Source: Nonomuraea deserti
GTDB taxonomy: Bacteria > Actinomycetota > Actinomycetes > Streptosporangiales > Streptosporangiaceae
Reading direction: 5' to 3'
Assembly: GCF_004348685.1 (NCBI RefSeq)
Contig: NZ_SMKO01000013.1
Span: 40,138-104,137, forward strand
DNA length: 64,000 nt
Under the pieces are notes generated by a model that was not told the DNA's origin, searched no databases, and saw only the letters and a program-made list of their open reading frames with translations. The position numbers and the translations under genes are program-made. Of the stretch, positions 32,009 through 49,965 are shown piece after piece. Numbering within the stretch: the first letter of the stretch is position 1; each line of letters opens with the position of its first letter.

Positions 32009-32080
32009 ATGTAGGCGCGGATGAAGGCGCGGATGAAGGCGCGGATGAAGGCGCGGATGAGGGCACGGATGAGGGCGCGT
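32009..32080 (+). repeat. 12-bp tandem repeat of start codons (ATGAAGGCGCGG, six units)
   Basis: Six head-to-tail units at 12-bp steps (32009, 32021, 32033, 32045, 32057, 32069). Units 2-4 are identical; unit 1 has an in-frame TAG after its ATG; units 5 and 6 have GAG for AAG. Each unit carries ATG plus an AAGG or AGGG that lies 5 nt before the next ATG, so each can act as a ribosome-binding site for the following copy. Confidence 0.85.
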
Positions 32081-33559: not shown

Positions 33560-33590
33560 CCGGCTGTTTCATGATATACCGGAGGGTAAC

Positions 33591-33912: not shown

Positions 33913-35142
33913 GTGACGGTGGTCTTTACCGGTGAGCCGGAGGCGGCGGCCCCGCCCGTGCCGCGGGCCGGCGGCGAAGGGGGAGAGCGGCCTCTCGCGG
34001 GAATCCGCGTCGCCATGCTGAACTTCCGCGAGCCCCGGCAGTCGACCGCCGGCGGCGCCGAGGAGTACGCCTGGCAGGTCAGCCGGTTCCTGCTGGCCCA
34101 GGGGGCCGTGGTGACCTTCGTGACCGGCCGCCAGCGGGGACAGCGGCGCGCCGAGGTCCTGGAGGGCATCCGGCTGCGCAGGATGGGCAACCCCTACCTG
34201 GTCTACGTGCTGGTGCCGCTCTGGTTGCTGTTCCACCGGCGCCGGGTCGACGCCGTCATCGACACGATGAACGGCATCCCCTTCTTCTCGCCCCTCGTGG
34301 TACGCCGGCGCACCCCCGTGCTCTGCCTCGTCCACCACGTCCACGACCGGCAGTTCCACGCCTTCCTCCCGCGCTGGCTGGCCAGGATCGGCTGCTTCGT
34401 CGAAGGGCCGGTCGCCCGGCTGCTCTACCGCCGCTGCCTGACGATCACCGTCTCGGAGTCGTCCAAGCATGAGCTGGCCGGGAAGCTGCGCTGGCTCGCC
34501 CCGATCACCGTCGTGCCCAACGGCTGCGCCGAGCCCGAGACGGTCGCGCCGGAGCCGGGACGGGGGGAGCCCGCGGTCGCGCCGACCCTTGTGTACGCGG
34601 GGCGGCTCGTCGGGCACAAGCGCATCGAGCGGGTCGTCGATCTGGCCGCCCACCTTGACGCGTCGTGGCCGGGGCTGACCGTGCACGTCATCGGGCGCGG
34701 CCCGGAACAGGGCCCGCTGGCCCGGCGGATCGCGGACAACGGGCTCCACGGGCGGGCCGTGCTGCACGGATACCTGCCGGCGGCGCGCAAGAACGCGCTG
34801 CTCGGCGCCGCGCGCCTCAACGTGACGGCCTCGGAGTTCGAAGGCTGGGGGCTGACCGTGATCGAGGCCGCCGCCCTCGGGGTCCCGACGGTGGCCTATG
34901 ACGTGGCGGGCCTGCGCGACTCCGTACGCCACGGCGTCACCGGATGGCTCGTGGGCGAGGACGAGTGCCTGGCCGACGTGGTCGAACGGGCGCTGAAGGA
35001 ACTGTCGGACCCGTGCCGCAGGGCCGAGGTGGCCGACGCCTGCCGGGCCTGGGCGCGGGAATTTACGTGGGCCCGAACTGGGGCTAGCATAACCGGACTT
35101 ATCCTGGCGAAACTCCAAGATCGCGGCGGAGCCTATCAGTGA
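33913..35142 (+). CDS. Glycosyltransferase family 4 protein
   Basis: A 409-residue GT-B glycosyltransferase. After a Pro/Gly-rich N-terminal extension of about 30 residues, the acceptor loop reads FREPRQSTAGGAEEYAWQV; the donor domain has LVYAGRLVGHKRIERVV and the E-x7-E motif SEFEGWGLTVIEAAALG. It is predicted cytoplasmic or membrane-peripheral. The start is GTG 33913; GTG 33919 has better spacing to GAGGAG. The stop is shared (GTGA) with the AftD homologue, showing tight coupling. It probably makes a lipid-linked glycan that AftD then arabinosylates on the outside; the order is inference. Confidence 0.88.
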   Translation: MTVVFTGEPEAAAPPVPRAGGEGGERPLAGIRVAMLNFREPRQSTAGGAEEYAWQVSRFLLAQGAVVTFVTGRQRGQRRAEVLEGIRLRRMGNPYLVYVLVPLWLLFHRRRVDAVIDTMNGIPFFSPLVVRRRTPVLCLVHHVHDRQFHAFLPRWLARIGCFVEGPVARLLYRRCLTITVSESSKHELAGKLRWLAPITVVPNGCAEPETVAPEPGRGEPAVAPTLVYAGRLVGHKRIERVVDLAAHLDASWPGLTVHVIGRGPEQGPLARRIADNGLHGRAVLHGYLPAARKNALLGAARLNVTASEFEGWGLTVIEAAALGVPTVAYDVAGLRDSVRHGVTGWLVGEDECLADVVERALKELSDPCRRAEVADACRAWAREFTWARTGASITGLILAKLQDRGGAYQ

Positions 35143-38100
35143 CCCAAGCCTCGCCTGGACTCCACGAAGAGCTCGCGGAGCCCGCCGCCGAGAGCTACGA
35201 GATCCGGGTCAGGCACAGGCTGCGGCTGTTCGCCTCCTGCCTCCTGCTCGGCGCCATCGCGTTCAACACCGCGACCGAGAAGATCATCCCCGAGACCAAG
35301 CTCGACATGGCGGTCAACCCGCTGGGATTCCTCGGCCGGGCCCTGCACCTGTGGGACGGCGCCTACTTCGGCCACCTGCAGAACCAGGCCTACGGCTACC
35401 TCTTCCCCATGGGACCGTTCTACGCGCTCTGCCTCAAGCTGGGCATGGACTCCTGGATGGTCCAGCGGTTGTGGATGTCCCTGGTCCTCTGCACCGCCTT
35501 CCTCGGCGTGGTGCAGCTCGCCCGCGCCTTACGCGTCGGCGGCCCGTACACCCGCGTGATCGCCGGCTTCGTGTACGCGCTCGCACCGCACGCGCAGGCG
35601 CTCATCGGCATCAACTCCTCGGAGTTCCTGCCCAGCGCGGTCCTGCCGTGGATCGTTCTCCCCCTGGTCAAGGGCGCCAGAGGCGAGCTGTCGGCCCGCC
35701 GGGCGGCCGGATTGTCGGCGCTCGCCTTCCTCTTCTGCGGGGGCGTCAACGCCGTGGCCGAGTACGCCGTGCTCGCCGTGCCGCTGCTCTACCTGCTGAC
35801 GCGGCGCGGCGGGCCGGACAAACGGCGGCTCGTCGCCTGGTGGCTGCCGCTCATCGTGTTCGCCTCGATGTGGTGGCTCGCCCCGCTGCTGACGCTCGGC
35901 GGCTACATCTTCTCCTTCCTGCCCTACATCGAGACGGCCAGCGCGACGACCGGCGTCACCTCGCTGGTCAACACGTTGCGCGGGACGTCGAGCTGGCTCA
36001 GCTTCCTGAACGTGGACGGGCAGACCTGGCTGCCGGACGCCCACCAGCAGTCCACGGTCCCGTGGCTGATCGTGGTCACCGCCGCCGTGTCGGCGACGGG
36101 CCTGGCCGGTCTCGTCTCCCGCAGGATGCCGGAGCGGCCCTTCCTCCTGATCAGCCTGCTGTGCGGGGTCGCCGTCATCACCACGGGCCACCCGGGCACC
36201 CCCCACCACGAGCTCATGGTCCAGCTGCTGGACGGACCCCTCGCCGCCTTCCGCAACCTGCACAAGTTCGACGCGCTGATCAGGTTGCCCGTGGCGCTCG
36301 GGGTCGCCGGTCTCCTGGCCACGGCGCGCCCGCGCCTGCGCGTGCCCCTGACCGCCGTCACGGCCGGGCTCGTGGCATTGTCGGGCCTGCCCATCCTGTA
36401 CGCCGGGCTCGCGCCGGCCGGCGGCTTCACCACGATCCCCGACTACTGGAAGCAGGCCATCTCCTGGGTCGGCCGCAACGCCGGCGACGGGATGGTGCTG
36501 GCCGTGCCGGGGTCCAAACGCGGCGAGTACCTCTGGGGGCGCCCGCTCGACGAGCCGCTGCAGGCGCTCTCGCAGGTCCGCTGGGCCACGCACACCATCG
36601 TGCCGTGGGGGTCGGCCGGCATCTCGCGGCTGATGGCGGCCGTCGACGAGCGCCTGTCCGCCGGCGTGGGGTCCGCGGGGCTCACGGCCACGCTGCGCCG
36701 CATGGGGGTGACGTACCTGGTGGTCCGTAACGACCTGGATCGCGCCACCATCGGCACCGCCTGGCCGGCGCGCGTGCACCAGGCGCTGGAGGACTCGCCC
36801 GGCATCGAGCTCGCGGCCCAGATGGGCCCGGGCGTGGGCATCGGCCAGCACGGCAAGGCCGCCGCCTGGCTGGACCAGCCCTACCCCGCGGTCGAGATCT
36901 ACAGGGTGCCCGGGGCGGCGCCGCTCGTCGGCACCGTCGACGCCACCCGCCCGCTGCGCGTCGGAGGAGCTCCCGAGGCCGTGCTCGACCTGGCCGAGCA
37001 GGGACTCCTGGACGACGACAGGCCCGTGCTGCTCAACGACGACGACGGCCGCGTCGAGGTGCCCGGGCGCGACACCGTACTGACCGACACGCTGCGCCGG
37101 CGCGAGATCGCCTACCCCGACCTGCGCCGCAACTCCAGCGCCACGCTCACCGCGGCCGAGCCGTTCCGTGGCGACTCGCCGTCGAACGACATCCTGGACC
37201 CGGGCTGGGAGCGGTATCTCAGCACGGCCACGTTCACCGGGATCGCGAGCGTCACGGCGTCCAGCTCCGAGGCGGACGTCACGGCGGCCCCGCGGAGCAG
37301 GGAGCCCGGCCACCAGCCGTTCGCCGCGCTCGACGGCGACCGGCGCACCAGCTGGCGCTCCACCGGCTGGAACGGCGCGGCCGGCGAGTGGATCGAGGTC
37401 GCCTTCACCGAGCCGCTGGACGTCGCCACGATCCAGGTCGCCTTCGAGAACTCGCCCATCGGCCCTCCGCCCGGCGAAGTGGTGGTGGAGACCGACACCG
37501 GCGCGCTGCGCCAGAAGGTGCGCGCCACCTCGGACGCCCAGGAGCTGGTCGTGCCGGACGGCCCGGTCAGCCGGCTGCGCCTGGAGGTGGTGTCCACCGC
37601 CCACGAGCCGGAGAGCAGGCTCGGCGGCCGGGTCGGGATCACGGAGCTGACCGTGCCAGGGGTGCACCCCACCCGCTCGATCACCGTGCCGGACCCGGGC
37701 ACAGAACCGGCCGTGCCGGATCCGGGCACGGAACCGGCCGTGCCGGACCCGGGCACGGAACGGCCCGAGCCGGACAAGGGCCCGGGCTCCGGCGAGCCCG
37801 CCGTGGTCGCGTTCAGCAGGACCGGTGACGTTCCCGGCTGCGTCAGGGGCTCGCTCGCCTGGAGCTGTGCCCAGGGCCACGAGGTCCTGGGCGACGACGG
37901 TCACGGATTCGACCGCTCCTTCACCGTCAGGAAGGACGGCTCGTACGAGCTCTCCGGCCGTACGGTGCTCACCGAGCGCACGGCCATCGAGCGGCTGACC
38001 ACGCTGCCCGGCGACGCCGTGAAGGTGCGGGCGTCCTCGACGGCGGTCGAGCACGGCGCGGCCGCCGGCCGGTGGGCGTTCGACGGGGACCCGAAGACCG

Positions 38101-39356
38101 CGTGGTTCGCCGACCCGCTCGACCCGAAGCCCACGCTGAGCGTCGAGCTGGCCCGTAAGACGCGGTTGTCGCACATCCGCGTCGTCACGCCCGACTCCTA
38201 CCTCGGGGCCCCTCCTGTCCGGGTGACGATCCGCGCCGAGGGCGGCGTCAGGCAGAGCTGGGTGGGCCAGGACGGCATCGTCCGCTTCCCCGCCATGGAG
38301 GCGAGGAAGGTCGAGCTGGAGTTCGGCGCGTCGGGCGGCCGCCCCGTCGAGATCAGCGACGTCTCCTTCCCCGGGGTACGCCCGCTCGGCGCCCTGACCG
38401 GCTTCCCGCTCCGCGTGCCCTGCGGGTTCGGGCCGACGTTCACCGCCGGTGGCGAGACCGTGCACACCAGGATCGTCGACGGCTCGCTGAACGACGTGGT
38501 CACCGGCAGGCCGGTTGCGTTCGAGAGCTGCGAGCCGCTGAGGCTGGCGTCGGGCCAGGCGCGGTTGTCCCTGCGGCGGGGCGACGCCTACCGCGTCGAG
38601 TCGGCGATCGTCCGCCACGAGGACGGCGGCCAGGAGGCCGCGCCCGTGGAGATGAGCGAGGTGGCCGTGACGTCGTGGGAGGACGGGGAGCGCGTGGTCC
38701 AGGTCGGCGTCACGAAGGACTCCTACCTGGTCGTCAACGAGAACTTCAACCCCGGCTGGCGGGCCAGACTGGGCGCCGTCGAGCTCAAGCCGGTCCGGCT
38801 CGACGGCTGGCGGCAGGCGTGGTTCCTCCCGTCGCACGTCGCGGGCGCGGTCACGCTCACGTACGAGCCCGACTCCCGCTACCGCGCGGGGCTGGCCGCG
38901 GGCGGCGGGCTGGCGCTGCTGGTCGTGCTGCTGGCCCTGGTCAGGACGGCCCCGCCCGCGCGCCACCGTGCCCTGGTCCGTCCCGCACGCCTGCGCGCCG
39001 CGCACCTCGCGCCGTTCGCCGTCGCGCTGGGCTTCTGGGTGGGCGGGCCGGTGGGCGCCGGGGTGGCGGGCGCCTTCTACGCGCTGGGGGCGTGGTCGCG
39101 TTCGCTGCGCGCGGCCGAGCACGCGCGCGTGCCGCGGTGGCGGCGCCTGCTGCTCGGGCCACCGGGCGGCGTCGCCCTCTTCATGGCCGCCGCGGTCCTG
39201 GTGGCCGCCGGCGTCGACGGCCGCTGGCCGCAGCTCCTCTGCCTGCCCCTCCTCGCGCAGTCGCTCGCCGAGATCCCCGCCAGGCGGGCCGCGCGGACGT
39301 CCGAACTTCCCGTACCCGTCGCCGCGGGCGGCCCGACCATGACGAGTGTTCCGTGA
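35139..39356 (+). CDS. aftD: AftD-like alpha-(1->3)-arabinofuranosyltransferase (DUF3367)
   Basis: A 1405-residue protein, the same length class as mycobacterial AftD (about 1400). The N-terminal GT-C membrane domain (about 1-440) has LDMAVNPLGFLGRALHLWDGAYFGHLQNQAYGYLF-type first-loop sequence and FRNLHKFDALIRLPVALG, both typical of AftD. A long periplasmic part contains two discoidin/NPCBM-like carbohydrate-binding domains (about 690-840 and 970-1075) separated by a PDPGTEPAV repeat linker, and membrane helices return near 1245. The donor for AftD is decaprenyl-phosphoryl-arabinofuranose; the genes for making it (UbiA, DprE1, DprE2) lie 8-15 kb downstream. Start GTG 35139 overlaps the GT4 stop (GTGA). 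Confidence 0.9.
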   Translation: MTQASPGLHEELAEPAAESYEIRVRHRLRLFASCLLLGAIAFNTATEKIIPETKLDMAVNPLGFLGRALHLWDGAYFGHLQNQAYGYLFPMGPFYALCLKLGMDSWMVQRLWMSLVLCTAFLGVVQLARALRVGGPYTRVIAGFVYALAPHAQALIGINSSEFLPSAVLPWIVLPLVKGARGELSARRAAGLSALAFLFCGGVNAVAEYAVLAVPLLYLLTRRGGPDKRRLVAWWLPLIVFASMWWLAPLLTLGGYIFSFLPYIETASATTGVTSLVNTLRGTSSWLSFLNVDGQTWLPDAHQQSTVPWLIVVTAAVSATGLAGLVSRRMPERPFLLISLLCGVAVITTGHPGTPHHELMVQLLDGPLAAFRNLHKFDALIRLPVALGVAGLLATARPRLRVPLTAVTAGLVALSGLPILYAGLAPAGGFTTIPDYWKQAISWVGRNAGDGMVLAVPGSKRGEYLWGRPLDEPLQALSQVRWATHTIVPWGSAGISRLMAAVDERLSAGVGSAGLTATLRRMGVTYLVVRNDLDRATIGTAWPARVHQALEDSPGIELAAQMGPGVGIGQHGKAAAWLDQPYPAVEIYRVPGAAPLVGTVDATRPLRVGGAPEAVLDLAEQGLLDDDRPVLLNDDDGRVEVPGRDTVLTDTLRRREIAYPDLRRNSSATLTAAEPFRGDSPSNDILDPGWERYLSTATFTGIASVTASSSEADVTAAPRSREPGHQPFAALDGDRRTSWRSTGWNGAAGEWIEVAFTEPLDVATIQVAFENSPIGPPPGEVVVETDTGALRQKVRATSDAQELVVPDGPVSRLRLEVVSTAHEPESRLGGRVGITELTVPGVHPTRSITVPDPGTEPAVPDPGTEPAVPDPGTERPEPDKGPGSGEPAVVAFSRTGDVPGCVRGSLAWSCAQGHEVLGDDGHGFDRSFTVRKDGSYELSGRTVLTERTAIERLTTLPGDAVKVRASSTAVEHGAAAGRWAFDGDPKTAWFADPLDPKPTLSVELARKTRLSHIRVVTPDSYLGAPPVRVTIRAEGGVRQSWVGQDGIVRFPAMEARKVELEFGASGGRPVEISDVSFPGVRPLGALTGFPLRVPCGFGPTFTAGGETVHTRIVDGSLNDVVTGRPVAFESCEPLRLASGQARLSLRRGDAYRVESAIVRHEDGGQEAAPVEMSEVAVTSWEDGERVVQVGVTKDSYLVVNENFNPGWRARLGAVELKPVRLDGWRQAWFLPSHVAGAVTLTYEPDSRYRAGLAAGGGLALLVVLLALVRTAPPARHRALVRPARLRAAHLAPFAVALGFWVGGPVGAGVAGAFYALGAWSRSLRAAEHARVPRWRRLLLGPPGGVALFMAAAVLVAAGVDGRWPQLLCLPLLAQSLAEIPARRAARTSELPVPVAAGGPTMTSVP
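37686..37766 (+). repeat. 27-bp tandem repeat in the AftD linker (PDPGTEPAV x3)
   Basis: Three nearly identical 27-bp units at 37686, 37713 and 37740, differing by only a few base changes. They encode a flexible Pro/Asp-rich hinge between two carbohydrate-binding domains. Confidence 0.85.
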
Positions 39357-41203
39357 GCCAGACGACCGAGCCGCGCACCGGGATGGTCATCACCGTCCCG
39401 GCCCCCATCGCCCGCGCCGCCGCGGCGGCGTCCCGGTGGGCCGGGCGGCACGGGGTGCTGCTGGCCGCGCTCCTGCTCGTCGGCGCGGCCATGGCGTGGA
39501 AGGCGGCCATCGCCCGGAACGCCTACTTCAAGGAGGACGACTTCGAGTTCGTGGCCAGGGCGATGGAGAACGACCTCTCCTTCGACTACCTGACCCGCAT
39601 CCACTTCGGGCAGTTCATGCCGGGCGGTTTCCTGCTCGCCTGGATCTCGGCCAGGCTGGAGCCCTTCGGCTGGGGGTACGCGGCGGGCATGGTCCTGGCG
39701 CTGCACGCCTGCGCCGCCCTCGCCGTGCTGCGCATGCTCCGCGTCGTGTTCGGCGCACGGCCCGCGATCCTCGCGCCGCTCCTCGTCTTCCTCGTCGCGC
39801 CCGTCACCGTGCCCGTGCTCGCGTGGTGGGCGGCGGGGCTCAACACCGTCTTCCTGCAGATCGCCCTGCCCATGGCGGTCGCCTCGCACTGGCACCACCT
39901 GCGGACCGGCCGGCTGCGGCACGCCGTGGCCGCCGCGCTGTGGGTGCTGTTCGGGCTGCTGGGGTTCGTCAAGGGCTTCGCGCTGCCGCTGGTGCTGCTC
40001 GCCCTCACGGCGATCTATCACGGCGGTCTCCGCCGCGCGCTGCGCGGGCACGTGGCGGCCTGGTCGATGCAGCTGGTCGTGCTGGCGGGCTTCGGCGCGC
40101 TCTACGTCCAGCGGTCGTTGTCGGCGCCCAACACCGGGGCTCTGCCGATCTTCGATCAGGCGGCGGGCTTCCTGTGGGAGTTGCTGGGCCGCACCTTCGC
40201 CACGACCGTGCTGGGCGGCCCGTGGCGGTGGTTCGCCGGCAACGACTGGGGGGTCGTCTCGCCGCCGCTGCCCGTCGTGATCGCCTCCCTCGTGACCCTC
40301 GCGGCCATGGTGGCGGTCACCACGTACTACCGCAGGCGCGCCGGCCTGGCGTGGGCGCTGCTTCTCGGCTACGTGCTCGTCGCCGACGCCCTTCCGGTGC
40401 TCTGGGGCCGGGTCCACCTGCTCGGCTCGTTCGCCGGCACGGACACGCGCTACGTCGCCGACGCCGTCCCGCTGGTCGCCCTGGTAGCCGGGCTCGTGCT
40501 GCTGCCGCTCCCGGGCGAGGCGGAGCCGTACCGGCGGGCGCTGCCCGCGAGAGAACGGGTGAGCGGGGTCTGCGGCGCGGCGCTCGGGCTGTTCGTGGGC
40601 GCGTCGCTGGTGTCGGTCTCGGTCTTCGCCGGGCACCTGGGCGCGGAGCGGCGCCACCGCTACATCGAGACGGCCCGCGCCGAGCTGGCCAGGGCGGCGC
40701 CCGGCACGGTGATCTACGACCGGCTCGTGCCACCCGACGTGCTGCCGAGCAGCTACGGCGCCTACAGCCTGACGTCGAAGGTGCTGGGCGCGCTGGCCCC
40801 GCCGCGGCTCAGGGCCACGATGCAGGCGCCCCCCGCGGCGCTCGAAGGCATGGTCTTCGACGATCAGGGTCGCCTGCGCCCCGTGGACGTGCAGGGTGTC
40901 CCGCTCGCTCCGCGCACCCGGGACCGGTGCTGGCCGGTCACCGGCGGGACCGTGCAGGTGCCGCTGGACAACCGCGTCACCCGCGCGGAGGGCACCCTGG
41001 TCAGGCTCGGGTACGCCGCCCGCGCGGACACGAAGGTCACCCTGTGGATGGCGGACCGCGCCACCGACGTGGCGCTGCGGGCCGGCCTCGGCCGGGTGTT
41101 CGTGCTCGCGGAGCCGGGCGCCGACCGCATCGTCGTCGACGACCTGCCACCGGGCGTGTGCATCGGCGACGTGACACCGGGGCAGGCGGTGCCGCGACCG
41201 TGA
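39353..41203 (+). CDS. GT-C-like membrane protein, paralogue 1
   Basis: A 616-residue protein with about 11-12 membrane segments in residues 30-430 and a roughly 180-residue extracytoplasmic C-terminal domain. The first outer loop holds the acidic motif NAYFKEDDFEFVARAM followed by FDYLTRIHFGQFMPGG, as expected for a GT-C glycosyltransferase catalytic loop. It is clearly paralogous to the protein at 42972 (same EDDF, LTR-H-GxxMPG, AWWAA-LN and TRYVADA motifs). The start GTG 39353 overlaps the AftD stop, and the stop overlaps the DUF3068 gene (GTGA at both ends), so all are one operon. Likely role: transfer of a lipid-linked sugar outside the membrane; the sugar is unknown. Confidence 0.78.
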   Translation: MSQTTEPRTGMVITVPAPIARAAAAASRWAGRHGVLLAALLLVGAAMAWKAAIARNAYFKEDDFEFVARAMENDLSFDYLTRIHFGQFMPGGFLLAWISARLEPFGWGYAAGMVLALHACAALAVLRMLRVVFGARPAILAPLLVFLVAPVTVPVLAWWAAGLNTVFLQIALPMAVASHWHHLRTGRLRHAVAAALWVLFGLLGFVKGFALPLVLLALTAIYHGGLRRALRGHVAAWSMQLVVLAGFGALYVQRSLSAPNTGALPIFDQAAGFLWELLGRTFATTVLGGPWRWFAGNDWGVVSPPLPVVIASLVTLAAMVAVTTYYRRRAGLAWALLLGYVLVADALPVLWGRVHLLGSFAGTDTRYVADAVPLVALVAGLVLLPLPGEAEPYRRALPARERVSGVCGAALGLFVGASLVSVSVFAGHLGAERRHRYIETARAELARAAPGTVIYDRLVPPDVLPSSYGAYSLTSKVLGALAPPRLRATMQAPPAALEGMVFDDQGRLRPVDVQGVPLAPRTRDRCWPVTGGTVQVPLDNRVTRAEGTLVRLGYAARADTKVTLWMADRATDVALRAGLGRVFVLAEPGADRIVVDDLPPGVCIGDVTPGQAVPRP

Positions 41204-42177
41204 TCGTCATGAGTCGCAGGAACCTCGCGCTGGTGCTGGCCGGCGTGGGCGCCTTCCTGCTGACGCTCATCCCCCTGACCCGCCTGTACGTGACCGCCCA
41301 GGTGCTCAAAGCGCCGTTGGAGCAGCAGAGCATGACCCGGTCGGTGGCGGAGTCGGCGACCTACCTCGATCCGGCCACGATGCGGCCGGTGGTGGGCGAG
41401 CTGGTGCGGACCCGCTGGCTGATCGGCGACGTGCTGGCCGGCGACGAGGACCGCGCGGTGTGGGGCGAGTCGGTCTCCCTGGCCACGCGGGAGGAGGAGC
41501 GGCTTGACTACCACGAGCGGCGCCTGGCCTTCGACCGCCGTACGGGCGCGATCATCAACTGCTGCGGCGAGTACCTGGACGAGGACACCACGATCCGGCA
41601 GTCCGGCCAGGCGTTCCGCTGGCCCTTCAACGCGCAGCGCCGCGACTACACGCTGTTCGACCTGCGGCTGCGCGTGCCGGTCACGGCCGCCTTCGACGGG
41701 GTCGAGCAGATCGGCGGCGTCGAGACCTACCGCTACGTCCAGCGCACGCCGCGCCGGCCGGTGCCGGGGGAGACGGCGCCGCTGCCGCGCCGCCTCGTCG
41801 GGCTGCCCGGCAAGGGCGACGTCGGGCTGGCCCGCTACGCCGAGATCCGGCGTACGTACTGGGTCGAGCCGGTCAGCGGGCAGCCGGTCAGGACGGTGGA
41901 AGAGGTGAAGGAGACGCTGGTCACGGCCGACGGGCGGGGCCGGCTGACCGCGCTGGAGGCGACGTTCCGCACCAGCGAGGCCGACGTCGTGGCGGCGCTG
42001 GACACGGCGGCGGCCTATCGTCGCTGGATCGTGCTGCTGGGCACGGTCGCGCCGGTGGGCGGCGGCGTGGCGGGCGCGGGCTGCGTCGTGGCCGCGCTCC
42101 TGCTCGTGCGGCGGCGCTCACCTGCGGCGCAGGACGAGGAGCAGGTTCCAGGTGACAAGCTCGCGGACGCCAGGTAG
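41200..42177 (+). CDS. DUF3068 (PorA-like) membrane protein, copy 1
   Basis: A 325-residue protein with an N-terminal helix (LALVLAGVGAFLLTLIPLTRLYV), a large extracytoplasmic domain with FDRRTGAIINCCGEYLDED, and a C-terminal helix (about 280-305). The Cys-Cys pair in INCCGEY recurs in copy 2 (LNCCGVS) at 46111 and marks the DUF3068 family, common in the envelope loci of high-GC actinobacteria and of unknown biochemical role. Start GTG 41200 (GTGA overlap) or ATG 41209. The 3' 60 nt overlap the end of the convergent methyltransferase. Each DUF3068 gene in this window is near a GT-C-like paralogue, suggesting a functional pair. Confidence 0.83.
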   Translation: MIVMSRRNLALVLAGVGAFLLTLIPLTRLYVTAQVLKAPLEQQSMTRSVAESATYLDPATMRPVVGELVRTRWLIGDVLAGDEDRAVWGESVSLATREEERLDYHERRLAFDRRTGAIINCCGEYLDEDTTIRQSGQAFRWPFNAQRRDYTLFDLRLRVPVTAAFDGVEQIGGVETYRYVQRTPRRPVPGETAPLPRRLVGLPGKGDVGLARYAEIRRTYWVEPVSGQPVRTVEEVKETLVTADGRGRLTALEATFRTSEADVVAALDTAAAYRRWIVLLGTVAPVGGGVAGAGCVVAALLLVRRRSPAAQDEEQVPGDKLADAR

Positions 42178-42858
42178 GTGGACGACGTGCCGGGCCCAGC
42201 GGGGATGGTAGCGGGGGACCGCGTCCAGCAGGTCGGCGTCGGGGCAGCGCCTGGCCCAGGCCAGCGGGCGGGCCACCCCGACGGCGAACATGCTCTCGCC
42301 GTAGACGTTCTTCGGCCGCCTGCCGTGCCTGCGTGTGTACCGCCGGGCGGCGTAGTGGCCGCCCAGGTAGTGCCAGGGGGAGGTCTCGTGGCCGCCCCAC
42401 AACGAGAGCCACACCGTGTACGACAGGTAGACGATCCCGCCGGGCCGGGTGACCCTGACCATCTCGGCGGCCATCCTGATCGGGTCTGGGACGTGCTCCA
42501 GCACGTTGGACGAGAAGCACACGTCCACCGAGCCCGTGGCGAGCGGCAGGTCGAGCGCGCTGCCCAGCACGGCCTCGCGCGGCGGCCGGCCGTCGCGCAG
42601 GCGCATCTCGCCCGCGTCGCAGTCGACGCACACCGGGCGCGCCCCGGCCGCGCGCAGCGCGTCGGCGAAGTAGCCGGGACCGCCCCCGACGTCGGCCACC
42701 GTGGCGCCCGCCAGCCCCGTGTACGTGCCGAGCTGGGCGACCGTGTCCATGGCCAGGGTGCCGTAGAAGAAGTCCGGATCGCTCTGCTCCAGACGGAAGG
42801 CGCGCAGCAGCCGGACGGACCTGCCGAGATCCGCTCGGAACGGTACGGGGGTGTCCAC
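42118..42858 (-). CDS. Class I SAM-dependent methyltransferase
   Basis: About 246 residues with the Rossmann methyltransferase core: motif I VADVGGGPGYFADALRAAG, motif II region VCVDCDAGEM, motif post-I CFSSNVLEHVPDP, and motif III MVRVTRPGGIVYLSYT. The C-terminal half (SPWHYLGGHYAARRY, HPRWARHVVHLPGVRELVTWNLLLVLRR) is the variable acceptor side. The start is not certain: GTG 42858 is preferred because conserved sequence begins there; ATG 42936 would add 26 unlikely residues. The 3' end overlaps the DUF3068 gene by 60 nt in convergent orientation. It may O-methylate a sugar of this glycan; madurose (3-O-methylgalactose) is a known cell sugar of this order, but that link is a guess. Confidence 0.85.
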   Translation of the reverse strand: MDTPVPFRADLGRSVRLLRAFRLEQSDPDFFYGTLAMDTVAQLGTYTGLAGATVADVGGGPGYFADALRAAGARPVCVDCDAGEMRLRDGRPPREAVLGSALDLPLATGSVDVCFSSNVLEHVPDPIRMAAEMVRVTRPGGIVYLSYTVWLSLWGGHETSPWHYLGGHYAARRYTRRHGRRPKNVYGESMFAVGVARPLAWARRCPDADLLDAVPRYHPRWARHVVHLPGVRELVTWNLLLVLRRR

Positions 42859-42971
42859 GGCGCGGAGCCTACCAACAAGCACCCCGCCTACTGGCCTGCC
42901 GTGGACGTGCCTGGCAGGGCCGTCACGGCAGTCCACTCGGGGGATCTCTGACGCAGCGGAAGGAAACGACG

Positions 42972-44801
42972 ATGGTGGAAGGCGCCAAGAGCTCCGAACC
43001 CGTGCGGATCACGCTGCCCTCGATCCGCACCGGGCCGATCATGGGCGTCGGCCTGCTGCTCATCCTGGTCTCGCTGATCTTCAGGGCCCACGTCCTCAGC
43101 AAGGCGTACTTCGTCGAGGACGACTTCCTGTTCGTGGCCGCGGCCGGCGACAGCGGGCTCACCTGGGACTACCTGACCCGCGTGCACAAGGGGCATCTCA
43201 TGCCCGGCTCGCTGGCCCTGGTGTGGCTGCTCACCTGGGTGGCGCCGTACAGCTGGGCGCTGGTGTCGTTCGTGACGCTCGCGCTCCAGGCGGCCGCCTC
43301 GATCGTGTTCCTGGTGCTGCTGCGGCGGCTCTTCGGCGACCGCGCCGTGGTGCTGGCCGCCCTCGCCGTCTACGCGTTCGCGCCGCTCACCGTTCCCGCG
43401 ATGAGCTGGTGGGCGGCGGCGCTCAACGCGGTGCCGCTGCAGCTCGCGCTGGTCGCCGCGCTCGCGGCGCACGTCAGGTACGTACGCGAGGGCAAGGGCC
43501 GGTGGCACGCCCTGATCTGGGCCGCCGCCGGGATGGCCTGCTCCACGAAGGGGGTGTTCATTCCCTTCGTGGTGCTGGGGGTCACCAGCGCCTACCTCGG
43601 AAGGGGCCTGTGGCTGCGGGCGCTGGCGGCCGAGCTGCGCAGGCCGGTCTGGTGGGCGCACGGAGCGCTGCTGGCCGGATACGCCGTGCTCTACCTGCTG
43701 CGCCGCGACACCGCCGGCTCGGACGCGCTGACCGGGCCAAAGGCCGAGGTGGTGCCGGGGCTGCTGCGCAGGCTGCTGGGGGAGACCTTTCCCACCGGCG
43801 CGGTCGGCGGCCCGCTGCGCTGGGGCGGGCTCACCTCCACCGGCGGGCTGGCCGACCCGGCCCAGGCCACCGTGATCGCGGCATGGGCGCTGCTCGCGCT
43901 GCTGGTCGTGATCACGTGCGTGTACCGCAGGCGGGCGTGGCGGGCGTGGGCGATCCTGGCCGCATACGTCGTCGTGGCCGACGCGATCCCCACCACGATC
44001 GCGCGGGCGACCGCGTGGGACCTCGTGGGCGCGGAGACGCGGTACGTCGCCGACGCCGCGGTGTTGTTCGCCCTCTGCCTGGCGCTGGCCTGGCACCCGG
44101 TCGAGGGCGAGCCGGACGCCCGCCGCCGGCCGGTGGGCGGCGGCCTGTCCATGGCCGCGAGCGCGCTGACCGTGGCCGTGCTCGCCGCGTCGCTGGTGTC
44201 GATCAACGCCTACGGCGACACTCTCAGCGGCGACAAGGTCAGGAGCTACCTGGGCAACGCGCGTGCCTCGCTGGCCACCGCCGCGCCGGGGACCGACATC
44301 TACCCGCGTCCCGTGCCGCCGGAGGTCGTCCTGCCGTGGAACGGCTCCCGCAGGCTGACGTCGTACGTGCTCGCGCCGCTGGCCGAGCCCGGGACCCGGC
44401 GGCGCATGCGCGACCCGCGGCCCTCGGCGAAGCCGTACGTCTTCGACTCCACGGGCAAGCTCGTCCCGGTGGGCCGGGTGACGCCGTTCTTCGACGCGGT
44501 GAAGGGCGAGAAGTGTTACGCGGAGGACGAAGTCTTCCCCGTCGAGTCCCTCGGCGGCCCCGGCATGGTGGTGGCCCTGGCCTACACCAGTCCCCGGCAG
44601 GTGCACGTGGTGGTGGATCTCGGCGGCACCGAGCGGGCGGCCACGCTGCCGGCGACCGGAGAGACGGGCGCGCTCTACTACGTGCCGCACGACGGGTCGG
44701 GCAAGGGGATGCGGATCAGCGCGGCGGGCGGCCAGGGTCAGGCATTCTGCCTGAGGGCCGCGGCCTTCGGGGAGCCGGGGCCGGCTCCTCCCGCCGCGTG
44801 A
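42972..44801 (+). CDS. GT-C-like membrane protein, paralogue 2
   Basis: A 609-residue protein with the same layout as the protein at 39353: acidic first loop KAYFVEDDFLFVAAAG, then WDYLTRVHKGHLMPGS, a SWWAAALNAVPLQLAL segment, TRYVADAAVL, and an extracytoplasmic C-terminal domain ending with YYVPHDGSGKGMRIS. GGAAGGA precedes ATG 42972 by 7 nt. Sequence similarity across the whole length shows duplication and divergence from the same ancestor. Its last 64 nt overlap the convergent acyltransferase. It probably adds a different sugar or linkage from its paralogue. Confidence 0.78.
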   Translation: MVEGAKSSEPVRITLPSIRTGPIMGVGLLLILVSLIFRAHVLSKAYFVEDDFLFVAAAGDSGLTWDYLTRVHKGHLMPGSLALVWLLTWVAPYSWALVSFVTLALQAAASIVFLVLLRRLFGDRAVVLAALAVYAFAPLTVPAMSWWAAALNAVPLQLALVAALAAHVRYVREGKGRWHALIWAAAGMACSTKGVFIPFVVLGVTSAYLGRGLWLRALAAELRRPVWWAHGALLAGYAVLYLLRRDTAGSDALTGPKAEVVPGLLRRLLGETFPTGAVGGPLRWGGLTSTGGLADPAQATVIAAWALLALLVVITCVYRRRAWRAWAILAAYVVVADAIPTTIARATAWDLVGAETRYVADAAVLFALCLALAWHPVEGEPDARRRPVGGGLSMAASALTVAVLAASLVSINAYGDTLSGDKVRSYLGNARASLATAAPGTDIYPRPVPPEVVLPWNGSRRLTSYVLAPLAEPGTRRRMRDPRPSAKPYVFDSTGKLVPVGRVTPFFDAVKGEKCYAEDEVFPVESLGGPGMVVALAYTSPRQVHVVVDLGGTERAATLPATGETGALYYVPHDGSGKGMRISAAGGQGQAFCLRAAAFGEPGPAPPAA

Positions 44802-45991
44802 GGGACGAGCCGGATGAGCCGCCGGGCGGGCTCCTCCACGTAGCGATGCGTGAGCCCGGCGAGGGCGACGGACAGGGCGCTGATCGCGACGAGGTTGAGG
44901 ATCAGGTTGCCGGTCCACGGCCGCTGGCCGGTGAAGTCGTACCAGAGGTAGATGACCACGAACTGCCAGAGGAAGACCCCGTACGAGATCCGGCCGAGAT
45001 AGCTCATGACCCGGCCGCCGAGCAGCTCGCCCAGCCGGGTGGACCGCTCGGACTCCAGGGCGGCGGGCGCCACGAGGCAGAGCGCGACGAGCGTGTAGAG
45101 GGCCTGCTCGGAGAAGGCCGTCCAGATGCCGCCCAGGCCGACGAAGCGCGGCCCGGTCACCGGGGTGGAGGCGATCAGGTAGGCGAGCCCGGCGATCAGC
45201 CACAGCGTGCCCCACGAGCCGGCCAGGGCCGCGCAGAGGCGGCGTACCCGTCCGTCCTCCGCCCTGGCCCAGACGGTCAGGACCGCCAGCGCCATGCCGG
45301 GCACGAAGAACGTCCACGAGCGCGGCAGCCACACGTTCATCCACGGGCGGTACTCGGGGAAGTACTCGAAGATCGTGTACACGTACGACAGGGCGCCGAA
45401 GGCGGCCAGCCCGATCAGCAGGCGCCTGGCCCTGGCCCGCAGGTCGGCTCCCGCGCGCAGCGCGAACCAGCGCAGCGCCGCCGCCATCAGCGGGAGCGTG
45501 AGGTAGAAGGTCAGCTCGACCGCCAGGCTCCACATCTGCCCGAGCCCCTTGGGCCCGAGGCCGAACCACCACGGGGTCAGGTCGTAGGTGTGCACGAGGA
45601 ACGCCAGTTGCGCCCACGTCCACGGGTCGGACCGGTGGGCCTCGCCCCACAGCAGCAGGGCCACGGCCACCACCAGCCAGTAGGCGGGGACGATGCGGAA
45701 GAAGCGCCGCCACAGGTAGCGGCGCGTGTCCGGGGCCCGCTCGCCGGTCAGCACCTCCGCCGCCCACGGGCGGTACAGCAGCAGGCCGGAGAGCGTGAAG
45801 AAGATCGGCACCCCGATCTCGCCCCGCGACAGCACGCCGCCGAGGAACCCTGGCTCCAGCGCCGTTCCCGCCTCCATTGCGACGTGGAAGAGCAGCACGG
45901 CGAAGGCGGCCACGGCGCGGATGCCGTCGAGCGCGGCCTGGCGGCCGGAGATCGCCGGCAGCCGCGCCGATGTAGAACCTGTTTCGGTCAC
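44738..45991 (-). CDS. Acyltransferase family 3 membrane protein (OafA-like)
   Basis: A 417-residue protein with about 10 membrane segments. The N-terminal signature ALDGIRAVAAFAVLLFHVAME (Arg and His of the acyltransferase-3 active site) and IFFTLSGLLLYRPW identify the family, which O-acylates sugars of surface polysaccharides at the membrane. The start is GTG 45991, only weakly preceded by GGGATGCGGA. Its 3' end overlaps the paralogue-2 gene by 64 nt. It is divergent from the DUF3068 copy 2 gene across an AT-rich gap of about 120 bp that must hold both promoters. Probable substrate: an arabinan or galactan-like glycan assembled by the same locus. Confidence 0.9.
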   Translation of the reverse strand: MTETGSTSARLPAISGRQAALDGIRAVAAFAVLLFHVAMEAGTALEPGFLGGVLSRGEIGVPIFFTLSGLLLYRPWAAEVLTGERAPDTRRYLWRRFFRIVPAYWLVVAVALLLWGEAHRSDPWTWAQLAFLVHTYDLTPWWFGLGPKGLGQMWSLAVELTFYLTLPLMAAALRWFALRAGADLRARARRLLIGLAAFGALSYVYTIFEYFPEYRPWMNVWLPRSWTFFVPGMALAVLTVWARAEDGRVRRLCAALAGSWGTLWLIAGLAYLIASTPVTGPRFVGLGGIWTAFSEQALYTLVALCLVAPAALESERSTRLGELLGGRVMSYLGRISYGVFLWQFVVIYLWYDFTGQRPWTGNLILNLVAISALSVALAGLTHRYVEEPARRLIRLVPHAAGGAGPGSPKAAALRQNA

Positions 45992-46110
45992 GTTTCCGCA
46001 TCCCTGGTGACGATGGTCACTCCCCGCAATAACATACCGGCGAGTAGAAACTTGGTTTCAGTACTTAACCACCCAGACAGGCGTCCGTGCACCTGGCACA
46101 TGGAGGGTCG

Positions 46111-47031
46111 ATGAACCGGGTCGTCGTTGGCAGCGTCCTCATCGCCGTCGGGGCATTCCTCGTGGTTCTGGCCCCTCTGGTGCGCTTCCAGGTGGCGCCC
46201 GCGCTCATGAGCGCCAAAGGCGACCAGTACGGGATCAGCAAGCTCCGCGCGACCGGCGCACAATACTTCAGCGTCGCCGACGGCAAGGTGCTGACCGCCG
46301 ACCTCGACATCATCGTCACCACGCGCGGAGACGTGAAGGAGGCGTCCGGCGACCGGGTCGTGTGGGACGAGTTCACCGCCGTGAACGACGTCACCAACGG
46401 CAAGCCCGGCATCGACTTCACCGAGCGGCGCAGCGCCTTCGACAAACGCTCGGGCGTCGGGCTCAACTGCTGCGGCGTCAGCATCGACAAGGAGCCGGTG
46501 GAGCTGCAGGGGCAGATCTACAAGTTCCCGTTCGACGTGGAGAAGAAGAGCTACATGGTCTTCAACTCCACGGCGGGCAAGGCGTTCGAGGCCAAGTTCG
46601 TCGGCGAGGAGCAGGTCGGCGGGCTGAACACGTACAAGTTCGAGCAGGTCGTCCCCGAGACCAGGACCCAGACGCTCACCGCGCCCGCCGACTGGTTCGG
46701 CATGGGCGAGTCGGGCGACGTGCAACTCGACCGCGTCTACTCCGGCACCAACACCTTCTGGATCGAGCCCACCACCGGCGCCCCCGTCCGCCAGGAGCAG
46801 CAGCGCAACGAGGTGCTCAAGAGCGACGACGGCGTCGAGCGCTCCAAGGCGTTCGTGGCCACGGCCAAGATGACCGACGACACCGTCGACGGGCTCGTGA
46901 AGAGCGCGCAAGAGGGCAAGAGCCAGATCGACCTGATCAGGGTCACGCTGCCCGTCGTGCTGGGTGTGGTGGGCGTCGTGCTGTTCGTCGCCGGCCTCCT
47001 GCTGACCCTGCGCGGCCGCAGGACCACATGA
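46111..47031 (+). CDS. DUF3068 (PorA-like) membrane protein, copy 2
   Basis: A 306-residue protein with an N-terminal helix (VVVGSVLIAVGAFLVVLAPLV), an extracytoplasmic beta-rich domain that includes FDKRSGVGLNCCGVS and FWIEPTTGAPVRQ, and a C-terminal helix near 280-300. The layout and the Cys-Cys motif match copy 1 at 41200. ATG 46111 with GGAGG 4 nt upstream is the start; ATG 46087 lacks a ribosome-binding site. The stop overlaps the UbiA start (ATGA), so it is the first gene of the DUF3068-UbiA-DprE1-DprE2 operon, tying the family to arabinose donor synthesis. Confidence 0.86.
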   Translation: MNRVVVGSVLIAVGAFLVVLAPLVRFQVAPALMSAKGDQYGISKLRATGAQYFSVADGKVLTADLDIIVTTRGDVKEASGDRVVWDEFTAVNDVTNGKPGIDFTERRSAFDKRSGVGLNCCGVSIDKEPVELQGQIYKFPFDVEKKSYMVFNSTAGKAFEAKFVGEEQVGGLNTYKFEQVVPETRTQTLTAPADWFGMGESGDVQLDRVYSGTNTFWIEPTTGAPVRQEQQRNEVLKSDDGVERSKAFVATAKMTDDTVDGLVKSAQEGKSQIDLIRVTLPVVLGVVGVVLFVAGLLLTLRGRRTT

Positions 47032-47915
47032 GCCAGGGCGTGGTGGCGAGCCCCCGGGCGGCCACCCCGGCGCTGGCGCTGATCAGGGCCGCCAGGCCCC
47101 GCCAATGGCTGAAGAACGTCCTGGTCCTCGCCGCGCCGATGGCCGCGGGGGTGCTGGGCGAGCCGCGCTACCTGCTCGCCGCGCTGCTGGTGCTCGCCGC
47201 GTTCTGCCTGGCCGCGAGCGGCTCGTACCTGATCAACGACGCCTCCGACGTGCGGGCCGACCGGCTGCATCCGCGCAAGCGGCGGCGGGCCGTCGCGGCG
47301 GGGGCGGTGTCGGTGCGGGCCGCCCGGGTGACCGGCGTCGTGCTGCTGCTCCTGGCGCCCGCCGTCGCCGCGCTCACCGGGAGCTGGAAGCCGCCCGCCG
47401 TGGTCGCCGGCTACCTCGTCCTGACGTTGTCGTACACGCTGTGGCTCAAGCACCAGGAGGTCGTGGACCTGATCGCGGTCGCCGGGTGCCACGTGATCAG
47501 GGCATACGCCGGAGCCGTGGCGGTCGACGTGCCGGTGACCGGGTGGTTCCTGGTGGTCGTCTCGCTGGCCGCGCTGCAGCTGGTGGCGGGCAAACGCGAG
47601 GCGGAGCTGCGGCTCGTGGAGGCGGCGGGGACGCGCGCGACGCTGGCCGCCTACTCGCCCGCCTACCTCGCCCAGGTGCGGACCATGTGCTCGGGCGCGA
47701 TGATCGTGACGTACTGCCTGTGGGCGCTCAACGCGCACGACGACCTGTTCTACGGGCTCAGCATCGTCCCCTTCGTGCTGCTCGTGCTCCGGCACAACCT
47801 GCTTGTGGAGCGCGGGGGAGGCGAGGAGCCGGAGGAGCTCGCCCTGCGCGACCGGCCGACCCTGCTGTTCGCCGCCGTGCTCGTCGCCCTCGTCGGTCTG
47901 GGGATCTACGCGTGA
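47028..47915 (+). CDS. ubiA: Decaprenyl-phosphate phosphoribosyltransferase (UbiA family)
   Basis: A 295-residue UbiA-superfamily enzyme with about 9 membrane helices, corresponding to Rv3806c. It moves 5-phosphoribose from PRPP to decaprenyl phosphate, the committed step of decaprenyl-phosphoryl-arabinose synthesis. First Asp-rich motif YLINDASDVRADRLHPRKRRR (NDxxDxxxD) and second motif KHQEVVDLIAVAGCHVIRAYAGA are present; the N-terminus RAARPRQWLKNVLVLAAP is typical. The start ATG 47028 overlaps the DUF3068 stop (ATGA) and its stop overlaps dprE1 (GTGA). The phosphatase that follows in mycobacteria (Rv3807c) is not in the window. Confidence 0.93.
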   Translation: MSQGVVASPRAATPALALIRAARPRQWLKNVLVLAAPMAAGVLGEPRYLLAALLVLAAFCLAASGSYLINDASDVRADRLHPRKRRRAVAAGAVSVRAARVTGVVLLLLAPAVAALTGSWKPPAVVAGYLVLTLSYTLWLKHQEVVDLIAVAGCHVIRAYAGAVAVDVPVTGWFLVVVSLAALQLVAGKREAELRLVEAAGTRATLAAYSPAYLAQVRTMCSGAMIVTYCLWALNAHDDLFYGLSIVPFVLLVLRHNLLVERGGGEEPEELALRDRPTLLFAAVLVALVGLGIYA

Positions 47916-49231
47916 CCACGTTCCTGACCGGCTGGGGGCGTACGGCGCCCACGCCCGCGCGGCTCGCCAGGCCCCGCTCCGTCGGGCAGCTGCGCGAGCT
48001 GGTCGCGTCCGCGCCGCGCCGGGGCGTGGTGGCGCGGGGCCTCGGCCGCTCGTACGGCGACGCGGCGCAGAACGCCGGCGGGCTCGTCGTCGACTGCACC
48101 GGCCTGGACGCGTGGACCTTCGACGAGGGCAGCGGCCTGGTGACAGCCTCCGGCGGGGTGAGCCTGCACACGCTGATGACGGCGCTCGTCCCGCAGGGCT
48201 GGTTCGTCCCCGTCAGCCCCGGCACGCGGCACGTCACCGTCGGCGGAGCCGTCGCCGCCGACGTCCACGGCAAGAACCACCACCGCGACTCCTCGTTCGG
48301 CGCGCACGTCCGCTCGCTGACCCTGGTGACCGCGGGAGGCGAGGTCCTGACCCTCCGTCCCGGCCACCCGCTCTTCGCGGCCACGGTCGGCGGCATGGGG
48401 CTGACCGGGGTGATCGCCGAGGTCACGTTCGGCTGCGTGCCGATCAGGACGTCCATGATGCGGGTGGACGTCCAGCGCACCGCGGACCTGGACGAGACGA
48501 TGGCGGTCATGGCGGACAGCGACCACCGTCACCGCTACACGGTGGCCTGGATCGACCTGATCGCCCGGGGCCGCCGGATGGGGCGCAGCGTGCTCACCAG
48601 GGGCGATCACGCGACGCCTGCCGAGGTGAAGGAGGCGCCGCCGTTCGCGCCGGGCGCGCTGGCGCGGGCCCCCGCGTGGGTGCCCGGCGGGCTGCTCAAC
48701 GGGCTGAGCCTGCGCGCGTTCAACGAGCTCTGGTACCGCAGGGCGCCGCGCCGCCGGACCCTCACACAGGGCATCGCGCCGTTCTTCCATCCGCTCGACG
48801 GCGTGGAGGGCTGGAACCGCATGTACGGCCCGCGAGGGTTCGTCCAGTACCAGTTCGTGGTGCCCTTGGGCGCGGAGGAGACGCTGCGCGGGATCGTCGC
48901 GACCCTGTCGGAGCACGGCAGCCCGTCATTCCTGACCGTGCTCAAGAGGTTCGGGCCCGGCTCGGGCGGCCTGCTGTCGTTCCCCATGCCCGGCTGGACC
49001 CTGGCCCTGGACCTGCCCGCCGGTGGGCGCGGGCTGAGCGGCCTGCTGCGCGGCTTCGACCGGCGGGTGGCGGGCGCGGGCGGTCGCGTCTATCTCGCCA
49101 AGGACGCGCGGCTGGGCGCTGCCATGATGGCGGAGATGTATCCCGAACTGGAGCGGTGGCGGCGGATCAGGGACGAGGCCGATCCCGCCGGGCTGTTCCG
49201 CTCCGACCTGGCCAGGAGGCTGCGGTTGTGA
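47912..49231 (+). CDS. dprE1: Decaprenylphosphoryl-beta-D-ribose 2-oxidase (DprE1)
   Basis: A 439-residue VAO-type FAD enzyme oxidising decaprenylphosphoryl-ribose at C2, the first half of the epimerisation to arabinose. FAD-binding motifs GLGRSYGDAAQNAGG and ADVHGKNHHRDSSFG, and active-site Lys in VYLAKDARL, match mycobacterial DprE1. The benzothiazinone-modified Cys387 of M. tuberculosis lies in GWNICVDFP; here the segment is GWTLALDLP, with Ala365 in that position (codon 49004-49006), so covalent benzothiazinones should not be able to react. The GTG start overlaps ubiA (GTGA) and the stop overlaps dprE2 (GTGA), giving a coupled operon. Confidence 0.95.
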   Translation: MTTFLTGWGRTAPTPARLARPRSVGQLRELVASAPRRGVVARGLGRSYGDAAQNAGGLVVDCTGLDAWTFDEGSGLVTASGGVSLHTLMTALVPQGWFVPVSPGTRHVTVGGAVAADVHGKNHHRDSSFGAHVRSLTLVTAGGEVLTLRPGHPLFAATVGGMGLTGVIAEVTFGCVPIRTSMMRVDVQRTADLDETMAVMADSDHRHRYTVAWIDLIARGRRMGRSVLTRGDHATPAEVKEAPPFAPGALARAPAWVPGGLLNGLSLRAFNELWYRRAPRRRTLTQGIAPFFHPLDGVEGWNRMYGPRGFVQYQFVVPLGAEETLRGIVATLSEHGSPSFLTVLKRFGPGSGGLLSFPMPGWTLALDLPAGGRGLSGLLRGFDRRVAGAGGRVYLAKDARLGAAMMAEMYPELERWRRIRDEADPAGLFRSDLARRLRL

Positions 49232-49965
49232 AGAACGCGCTTGGCGGGGTCGACACCGTCCTGCTGCTCGGCGGGCGCAGCGAGATCGGCCTGGAGATCG
49301 TCAGGCTGCTGGCAGGGCTGGGCGCGGGCCGGGTGGTGCTGGCCGCGCGGGACGGGTTCGACCCGCCCGACCTCGGCGCGGAGGTCCACGTCGTGCCGTT
49401 CGACGCGCTGGACGTGCACGGGCACGGCGCCGTCTTCGCCAGGGCGACGGAGCTGGTGGGGGATCTCGACGTGGTGATCTCCGCGTTCGGCGTGCTGGGG
49501 ACCCAGGAGCGCTACGACGCCGATCCCGCGGCCGCCGCCGAGGCCGTGGCGGTCAACTACGGCGCGCACGTGTCGGTGGGGCTGCACGCGGCCAGGGTGC
49601 TGCGCGAGCAGGGCCACGGCACGCTCGTGGTGTTGTCGTCGGTGGCGGGCGCGCGCGTGCGCAAGGCCAACTTCGTGTACGGCTCGGCCAAGGCCGGGCT
49701 CGACGGGTTCGCCCAGGGCCTGGGCGACGCCCTGCACGGGTCGGGCGCGAGGGTGCTGATCGTGCGGCCGGGCTTCGTGATCGGGCGGATGACGAAAGGG
49801 CTGGCACCCGCGCCGATGTCCTCGACGCCGCGGCAGGTGGCGCTGGCCACGGTGGCCGCGCTGCGTGCCGGCGCGCCCTCCGTCTGGGTGCCGCGGGCGC
49901 TCGGGCCCGCCTTCCGCGTGTTGCGGCTGCTGCCTCGCGCCCTCTGGCGCAGGCTGCCTCGCTAG
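49228..49965 (+). CDS. dprE2: Decaprenylphosphoryl-2-keto-ribose reductase (DprE2)
   Basis: A 245-residue short-chain dehydrogenase that reduces the DprE1 product to decaprenylphosphoryl-beta-D-arabinose. NAD-binding VLLLGGRSEIGLEIVRLL, the SDR catalytic Ser in LVVLSSVAG, and Tyr/Lys in NFVYGSAKAGLDG are present; the C-terminus (VPRALGPAFRVLRLLPRALWRRLPR) is basic as in DprE2. The start GTG 49228 overlaps dprE1 (GTGA). The stop at 49963-49965 lies inside a KstR-like box that belongs to the next gene. It completes UbiA-DprE1-DprE2, the whole prenyl-linked part of the arabinose donor route except the phosphatase. Confidence 0.93.
   Translation: MKNALGGVDTVLLLGGRSEIGLEIVRLLAGLGAGRVVLAARDGFDPPDLGAEVHVVPFDALDVHGHGAVFARATELVGDLDVVISAFGVLGTQERYDADPAAAAEAVAVNYGAHVSVGLHAARVLREQGHGTLVVLSSVAGARVRKANFVYGSAKAGLDGFAQGLGDALHGSGARVLIVRPGFVIGRMTKGLAPAPMSSTPRQVALATVAALRAGAPSVWVPRALGPAFRVLRLLPRALWRRLPR

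Follow-up and report, generated by a model that had tools for sequence, protein, structure and literature searches.

Genes for making and using decaprenyl-phosphate-arabinose lie together in the 64,000-nucleotide stretch of DNA analyzed here (referred to as the window), and raise the question of what they serve in an actinomycete that probably makes no mycolic acids. A sequence-only reading of the window had argued that, if the host belongs to the Streptosporangiales, a different arabinofuranose (Araf)-containing glycan must exist in it, and that the genes around the donor pathway may define it as a new polymer. We address this question by considering in turn the gene block, its host, its relatives in other actinomycetes, and the glycan on which it may act.

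Gene content of the block and the arabinose-donor pathway

Codon-position GC and family searches resolved one dense block of 18 kb (32021-49965), in which the genes follow each other in the order of Table 1 and leave no free open reading frame of 70 amino acids or more. Overlaps of 4 nt chain GT4, AftD, and GT-C1 (the junction with GT-C1 only if the latter starts at 39353), and likewise chain PgfA2, UbiA, DprE1, and DprE2. A 943-amino-acid open reading frame at 39346-42177 was rejected as a single protein; it is coding only at its end, from 41209 (PgfA1), and the GT-C protein is encoded in another frame. The block had been taken to begin at 35139; the genes named from this position onward are all present, but the unit opens upstream, with MmpA (32021) and GT4 (33913).

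Table 1. Genes of the block, with positions in the window and the evidence for each assignment.
Gene product	Positions	Strand	Evidence
MmpA relative, polytopic membrane protein	32021..33559	+	NF053599, 319 bits (cut-off 210); linked to AftD in other genomes
GT4-family glycosyltransferase, positional counterpart of cg3166	33913..35142	+	PF00534/PF13439; 4-nt overlap with AftD
AftD arabinofuranosyltransferase homolog, GT-C domain with F5/8- and CBM_AftD-type modules	35139..39356	+	PF11847, 734 bits (cut-off 26); PF24607; PDB 6wbx
GT-C-like protein 1 (GT-C1), start 39353 or 39383	39353..41203	+	Frame and starts; 41% identity to GT-C2
PgfA/LmcA 1 (PgfA1; DUF3068, PorA in Pfam)	41209..42177	+	NF053601, 240 bits (cut-off 160)
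MtrP-like class-I methyltransferase, start uncertain (42936, 42882, 42858, or 42750)	42118..42936	-	PF08241; match to query from locus L072
GT-C-like protein 2 (GT-C2), C-terminal CBM35-like domain	42972..44801	+	Folded structure is GT-C
TmaT-like acyltransferase-3 (AT3)	44738..45991	-	PF01757; match to query from locus L072
PgfA/LmcA 2 (PgfA2; DUF3068)	46087..47031	+	NF053601, 285 bits (cut-off 160); LmcA 7n3v, E 4e-17; 4-nt overlap with ubiA
UbiA-type decaprenyl-phosphate phosphoribosyltransferase	47028..47915	+	NF008978, 352 bits (cut-off 207); PDB 8j8j
DprE1 decaprenylphosphoryl-ribose oxidase	47912..49231	+	PDB 4aut, E 1e-116; FAD_binding_4
DprE2 keto-reductase	49228..49965	+	NF053786, 260 bits (cut-off 250)

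UbiA, DprE1, DprE2, and AftD, which the sequence-only reading had named, are confirmed by family profiles over cut-off, by PDB matches, or by both, and its two DUF3068/PorA proteins, class-I methyltransferase, and acyltransferase-3 by family profiles. The two GT-C-like proteins it had noted are likewise present; they share their 41% identity over 463 positions, and the second is predicted to adopt a GT-C fold.

Immediately upstream of MmpA, a 747-amino-acid protein with two acyl-CoA dehydrogenase units is encoded at 29626-31869, as is also the case in three Nonomuraea and in some loci of the window's family (referred to as f1). Downstream of the block, genes of a lipid or steroid catabolism type (50049-60546) include an NMO, an enoyl-CoA hydratase close to EchA19, acyl-CoA ligases, a ChsH2-like OB-fold protein, and a thiolase-like protein. 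Elsewhere in the window are a separate exopolysaccharide-type group (5119-12838), consisting of a PF02397 initiating sugar transferase, an O-antigen ligase (Wzy_C), a GT4, a GNAT-type acetyltransferase, and a polysaccharide deacetylase (8888-10009), and two large SARP-like regulators with BTAD and NB-ARC domains (456-3353 and 21467-24379).

The three donor enzymes match by family and PDB those of the mycobacterial decaprenyl-phosphate-arabinose route (Rv3806c, DprE1, and DprE2), and their motifs are present: NDxxDxxxD at residue 70 of UbiA, HGKNHH and AKD in DprE1, and YxxxK in DprE2. AftD matches the M. abscessus-type AftD structures 6wbx and 6w98 (E about 1e-133), and its residue E265 is kept throughout an alignment of 64 AftD rows, 63 distinct, which include genomes without the donor synthase. 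Unlike the mycobacterial route, the window genes are coupled to PgfA2 and lie near AftD without emb, and DprE1 carries Ala at residue 365, where the aligned M. smegmatis residue is the Cys attacked by benzothiazinones, so that this enzyme would be ill suited to probing with a covalent benzothiazinone. The mycobacterial route also includes a 5'-phosphate phosphatase and a flippase. The earlier description of the donor route as complete is therefore slightly overstated: the phosphoribosyltransferase, DprE1, and DprE2 are present, but for these two further functions the block has no room, and Pfam found no candidate among the other window open reading frames scanned. In combining a polyprenyl phosphoribose synthase with a CBM-bearing GT-C, the locus resembles the three-component pentofuranose systems, whose Araf versions include DprE1/E2 homologs (Kelly 2024, PMC11127046); it differs from them in the lack of a recognized flippase in the window and in the addition of the lipid-transport genes of the tmaT locus.

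Host affiliation and cell wall genes of the source genome

The host looks like a Nonomuraea-like member of the Streptosporangiaceae: AftD is 81% identical to those of three Nonomuraea, with which it groups in the AftD tree (support 100), and GT-C2 is 94% identical to its counterpart in Nonomuraea sp. B5E05. The source genome (10.69 Mb, 470 contigs, 99.97% complete) was searched for cell wall genes by a loose first pass followed by HMM scoring, with C. glutamicum as a working positive control. No match was found in the whole genome, window included, for EmbA/B/C (PF04602), and none in the genome for the priming enzyme AftA (PF12249) or the galactan polymerase GlfT2 (PF17994), all of which were recovered over cut-off from the control. 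For the mycolate condensase Pks13 (NF040607), which is over cut-off in C. glutamicum, the top match in the source genome scores 762 bits, under the cut-off of 2100, and sits in a 3249-amino-acid frame that is likely an ordinary modular PKS. Since Emb, AftA, and GlfT2 gave no match and Pks13 stays under its cut-off, a mycobacterial-type mycolyl-arabinogalactan does not appear to be encoded in its known form. These results agree with the earlier suggestion of a likely non-mycolate host, perhaps of the Streptosporangiales, with no Emb-type transferases in the window, and they supply, for embA-C, aftA, and pks13, the genome search that had been proposed as a check on it.

N. corallina is described as lacking mycolic acids in the part of its description drawn on here (PMC10694255). 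The whole-cell sugar lists of N. corallina and N. composti give madurose, ribose, mannose, and glucose, arabinose being absent from both, and mannose and PIM are reported for N. composti.

The AftD/PgfA/MmpA locus within and beyond the Corynebacterineae

The DUF3068 proteins, methyltransferase, and acyltransferase had been suggested as possibly defining the new polymer, which is not supported, as they are relatives of genes in a published corynebacterial and mycobacterial locus. In the accounts available to us from that work, this locus contains tmaT, lmcA (NCgl2760), mmpA, and mtrP; lmcA is required for LM/LAM synthesis, and acetyl-TMCM is lost in C. glutamicum mutants of tmaT, mmpA, or mtrP, three genes on which both the acetylation and the transport of trehalose corynomycolate depend (PMC8698533). 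The C. glutamicum genes are listed as cg3161 (AftD), cg3163 (TmaT), cg3164 and cg3165 (hypothetical membrane proteins), cg3166 (putative glycosyltransferase), and cg3168 (MtrP) in the relevant portion of PMC7775120. Rv0227c (PgfA) is reported to interact with TmaT and AftD, and MmpL3 with AftD (PMC6656915, in the parts cited), and an M. smegmatis PgfA relative is described as having a barrel with a possible lipid-binding function (PMC8972800, in part). As far as the cited sections go, the role of PgfA/LmcA is unsettled between trehalose-mycolate transport and LM/LAM synthesis (PMC9678360, PMC8698533).

All six gene kinds (aftD, tmaT, pgfA/lmcA, mmpA, GT4, and mtrP) are found at 32021-47031 of the window, clustered as in the Corynebacterineae (NCgl2759-2764; cg3161-cg3168; Rv0226c-Rv0228 plus Rv0236c). 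For TmaT and MtrP the assignment comes from one-way searches, with queries that were picked by position, rather than by name, from the locus (L072) of an Emb- and Pks13-containing genome. The acyltransferase query has the window AT3 as its sole match in the source genome (35% identity, E 1.9e-34), and the methyltransferase query has 16 matches there, topped by the window gene (57% identity, 254 bits, E 5e-75) with the next at 50 bits. The window differs from the Corynebacterineae locus in that PgfA is duplicated, a GT-C pair is added, and ubiA-dprE1-dprE2 lies inside, and in that Pks13, Emb, AftA, and GlfT2 were not detected in its host. As Pks13 is not over cut-off, a mycolate cargo is unlikely. 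Judged by gene content, the window thus holds the AftD/PgfA/MmpA locus of the Corynebacterineae with an arabinose donor built in, and not a new-polymer cassette of novel genes.

The passages of PMC8698533 on MmpA state that it has no homologs outside corynebacteria and mycobacteria. In 296 sampled genomes of the class (counts at E<=0.001), we found AftD in 150 (149 over cut-off), MmpA in 116 (112 over cut-off), and Emb in 27; the donor synthase is over cut-off in 105, and Pks13 in 28, one of which was discarded as an artefact. The remaining 27 Pks13-containing genomes are identical to the 27 with Emb, and all belong to family f4. Among the 269 Emb-free genomes, AftD is present in 123 and MmpA in 89 (85 over cut-off), with both in 82 genomes of 11 families, AftD only in 41, MmpA only in 7, and neither in 139, a table for which a Fisher test ignores relatedness. 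Of the 89 Emb-free MmpA genomes, 7 lack AftD and one has a weak AftD match without listed place, which leaves 81 for which the AftD position is listed; in 77 of these, AftD and MmpA share a contig and are at most 9.3 kb apart (median 4.2 kb), and in the other 4 they are on different contigs. Whereas Emb and Pks13 are limited to 27 genomes, AftD and MmpA are linked in Emb-free ones, and this "mycolate" locus is therefore not tied to mycolates.

The gene content around these pairs was examined in 37 neighborhoods of up to 20 kb, hand-chosen from the hit lists for spread; some reach contig ends, which makes the counts of their genes lower bounds. The 32 Emb-free neighborhoods with MmpA all contain GT4 and AftD, and at least 29 contain PgfA, 27 an MtrP-like gene, 26 AT3, and 21 all six; in f4, all six are present in two of three. 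Two further loci, from families f15 and f16, have AftD but no MmpA, together with GT4 (both), an MtrP-like gene (one), and PgfA (one). AftD without MmpA is seen in f15 (28 genomes, each with two or three AftD matches) and f16 (12 genomes) as a whole.

Gene order varies between families. Most Emb-free loci outside f1 (12 of 18) read MmpA>, GT4<, MtrP>, AftD>, AT3<, PgfA>, some with interspersed genes, and relative to these the two halves are swapped in f4 (AftD>, AT3<, PgfA>, MmpA>, GT4<, MtrP>). In f1, GT4 is inverted and MtrP, found in 10 of 14 loci, sits behind AftD. The AftD tree shows 18 family changes for 18 labels (minimum 17) and the MmpA tree 16 (minimum 15); in both, f4 is confined to one side of a branch, and a few families are split. 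That the trees track the families fits mostly vertical descent and disfavors a recent export from f4, while giving no date for the locus. One sampled genome sharing the window's genus code carries a different version of the locus (L061, G284:C49:309200-329199, AftD at about 5819). Its AftD is 41% identical to that of the window and groups with Actinomadura/Thermomonospora; the MtrP-like and donor genes were not found in the fetched stretch, and the donor synthase is not over cut-off anywhere in that genome.

Possible function of the locus

How closely the arabinose donor is tied to this locus differs among the genomes. In the 37 Emb-free genomes that contain AftD, MmpA, and the synthase, no more than 16 kb separate the synthase from AftD or MmpA in 20, spread over four families; it is on the same contig but distant in 4, and on another contig in 13. 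PgfA-UbiA-DprE1-DprE2 forms one block in all five of the f1 loci that show donor genes (14 f1 loci fetched); DprE1 was found in the fetched stretch of none of the 18 non-f1 Emb-free loci. Of the 82 Emb-free genomes that carry both AftD and MmpA, 45 have no synthase over cut-off, including 14 of 14 in f17, 6 of 6 in f28, and 5 of 28 in the window's family. The core of the locus thus cannot always depend on decaprenyl-phosphate-arabinose: either AftD uses something else in these genomes, as may be the case in f17 and f28, or the synthase escaped the search. At the window locus, the physical coupling of the donor genes to PgfA2 favors arabinose as the sugar.

On balance, we lean slightly toward the view that the window genes make decaprenyl-phosphate-arabinose and place Araf on an envelope glycan, likely of the lipoglycan type, with a core that predates mycolates. 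UbiA would transfer phosphoribose from PRPP to decaprenyl phosphate, some phosphatase would remove the 5'-phosphate of the product, DprE1 and DprE2 would epimerize C2 to give the arabinose donor, and some flippase would export it. Outside the membrane, AftD, probably together with GT-C1 and GT-C2, would transfer Araf. PgfA1 and PgfA2 would bind either the donor on its lipid carrier or the lipoglycan as it grows, and how the lipid intermediate is acylated and passed on would be controlled by MmpA, MtrP, and TmaT. The lipoglycan acceptor is one that we infer from the action of LmcA on LM/LAM in C. glutamicum, the mannose and PIM of N. composti, the failure to find GlfT2, and an MptB-like glycosyltransferase elsewhere in the source genome (55 bits, cut-off 40, a match spanning only 136 of 553 positions); for the MptA family, the source genome gives 53.6 bits, far under the cut-off of 439.4. 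For C. glutamicum, the portion of PMC2884958 consulted reports a LAM whose terminal Araf occurs as single residues, and arabinosylation on this scale could be missed by whole-cell sugar tests. The claim that a new Araf glycan must exist is stated too firmly, and we put it forward as a prediction only; given the two sugar lists without arabinose, such a glycan in Nonomuraea would be minor or conditional.

Three other explanations were weighed against a lipoglycan acceptor. The donor genes and AftD might be mere neighbors, with AftD and the core handling another polyprenyl-linked sugar while UbiA-DprE1-DprE2 serve a separate arabinosylation, e.g., of a protein or a secondary metabolite. The Emb-free genomes that have AftD and MmpA without a synthase over cut-off would fit this, as would 34 Emb-free genomes that contain the synthase without AftD. 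We nevertheless judge it unlikely for the window, where PgfA2, ubiA, dprE1, and dprE2 overlap, and given the linkage of synthase and locus in four families; the conservation of E265 in AftD also speaks against it, weakly, as it extends to synthase-free genomes.

The other two would change the product rather than uncouple the genes. Chemotype IV actinomycetes have an arabinogalactan-like wall polymer without mycolates, and a polymer of this fashion would account for a donor route and an AftD that belong to the arabinan half of the arabinogalactan pathway; it is improbable here, however, as AftA, Emb, and GlfT2 were not found in the source genome and neither Nonomuraea species lists arabinose. 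Just as doubtful is the export of an acyl-trehalose lipid by the locus in the manner of the Corynebacterineae; fatty acids, ordinary or branched, would here replace the mycolates, and arabinose would be a side activity. MmpA and the TmaT- and MtrP-like genes do stay together, and it is acetyl-TMCM that the C. glutamicum mutants in these three genes lose, but with Pks13 not over cut-off, no mycolate motif is expected for TmaT to acetylate.

Returning to the lipoglycan reading, the core of the locus would predate mycolic acids and likely was reused for trehalose mycolates in the mycolate makers. More tentatively, and with somewhat less than even confidence, we propose that AftD-TmaT-PgfA-MmpA-GT4-MtrP is an ancient actinobacterial machine for the assembly and export of lipid-anchored glycans, to which mycolates were added later, and that Streptosporangiaceae make a D-Araf lipoglycan. 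As the donor genes are wired in through PgfA2, PgfA would then originally have carried either the arabinose donor in its polyprenyl-linked form or a lipoglycan bearing arabinose.

The more interesting part of these findings is how common the locus is in actinomycetes free of Emb and Pks13. A mycolate-free host that carries the whole gene set is a clean setting in which to study the role of the locus in the absence of mycolates, and for Nonomuraea-type actinomycetes an undescribed arabinose-bearing glycan is predicted.
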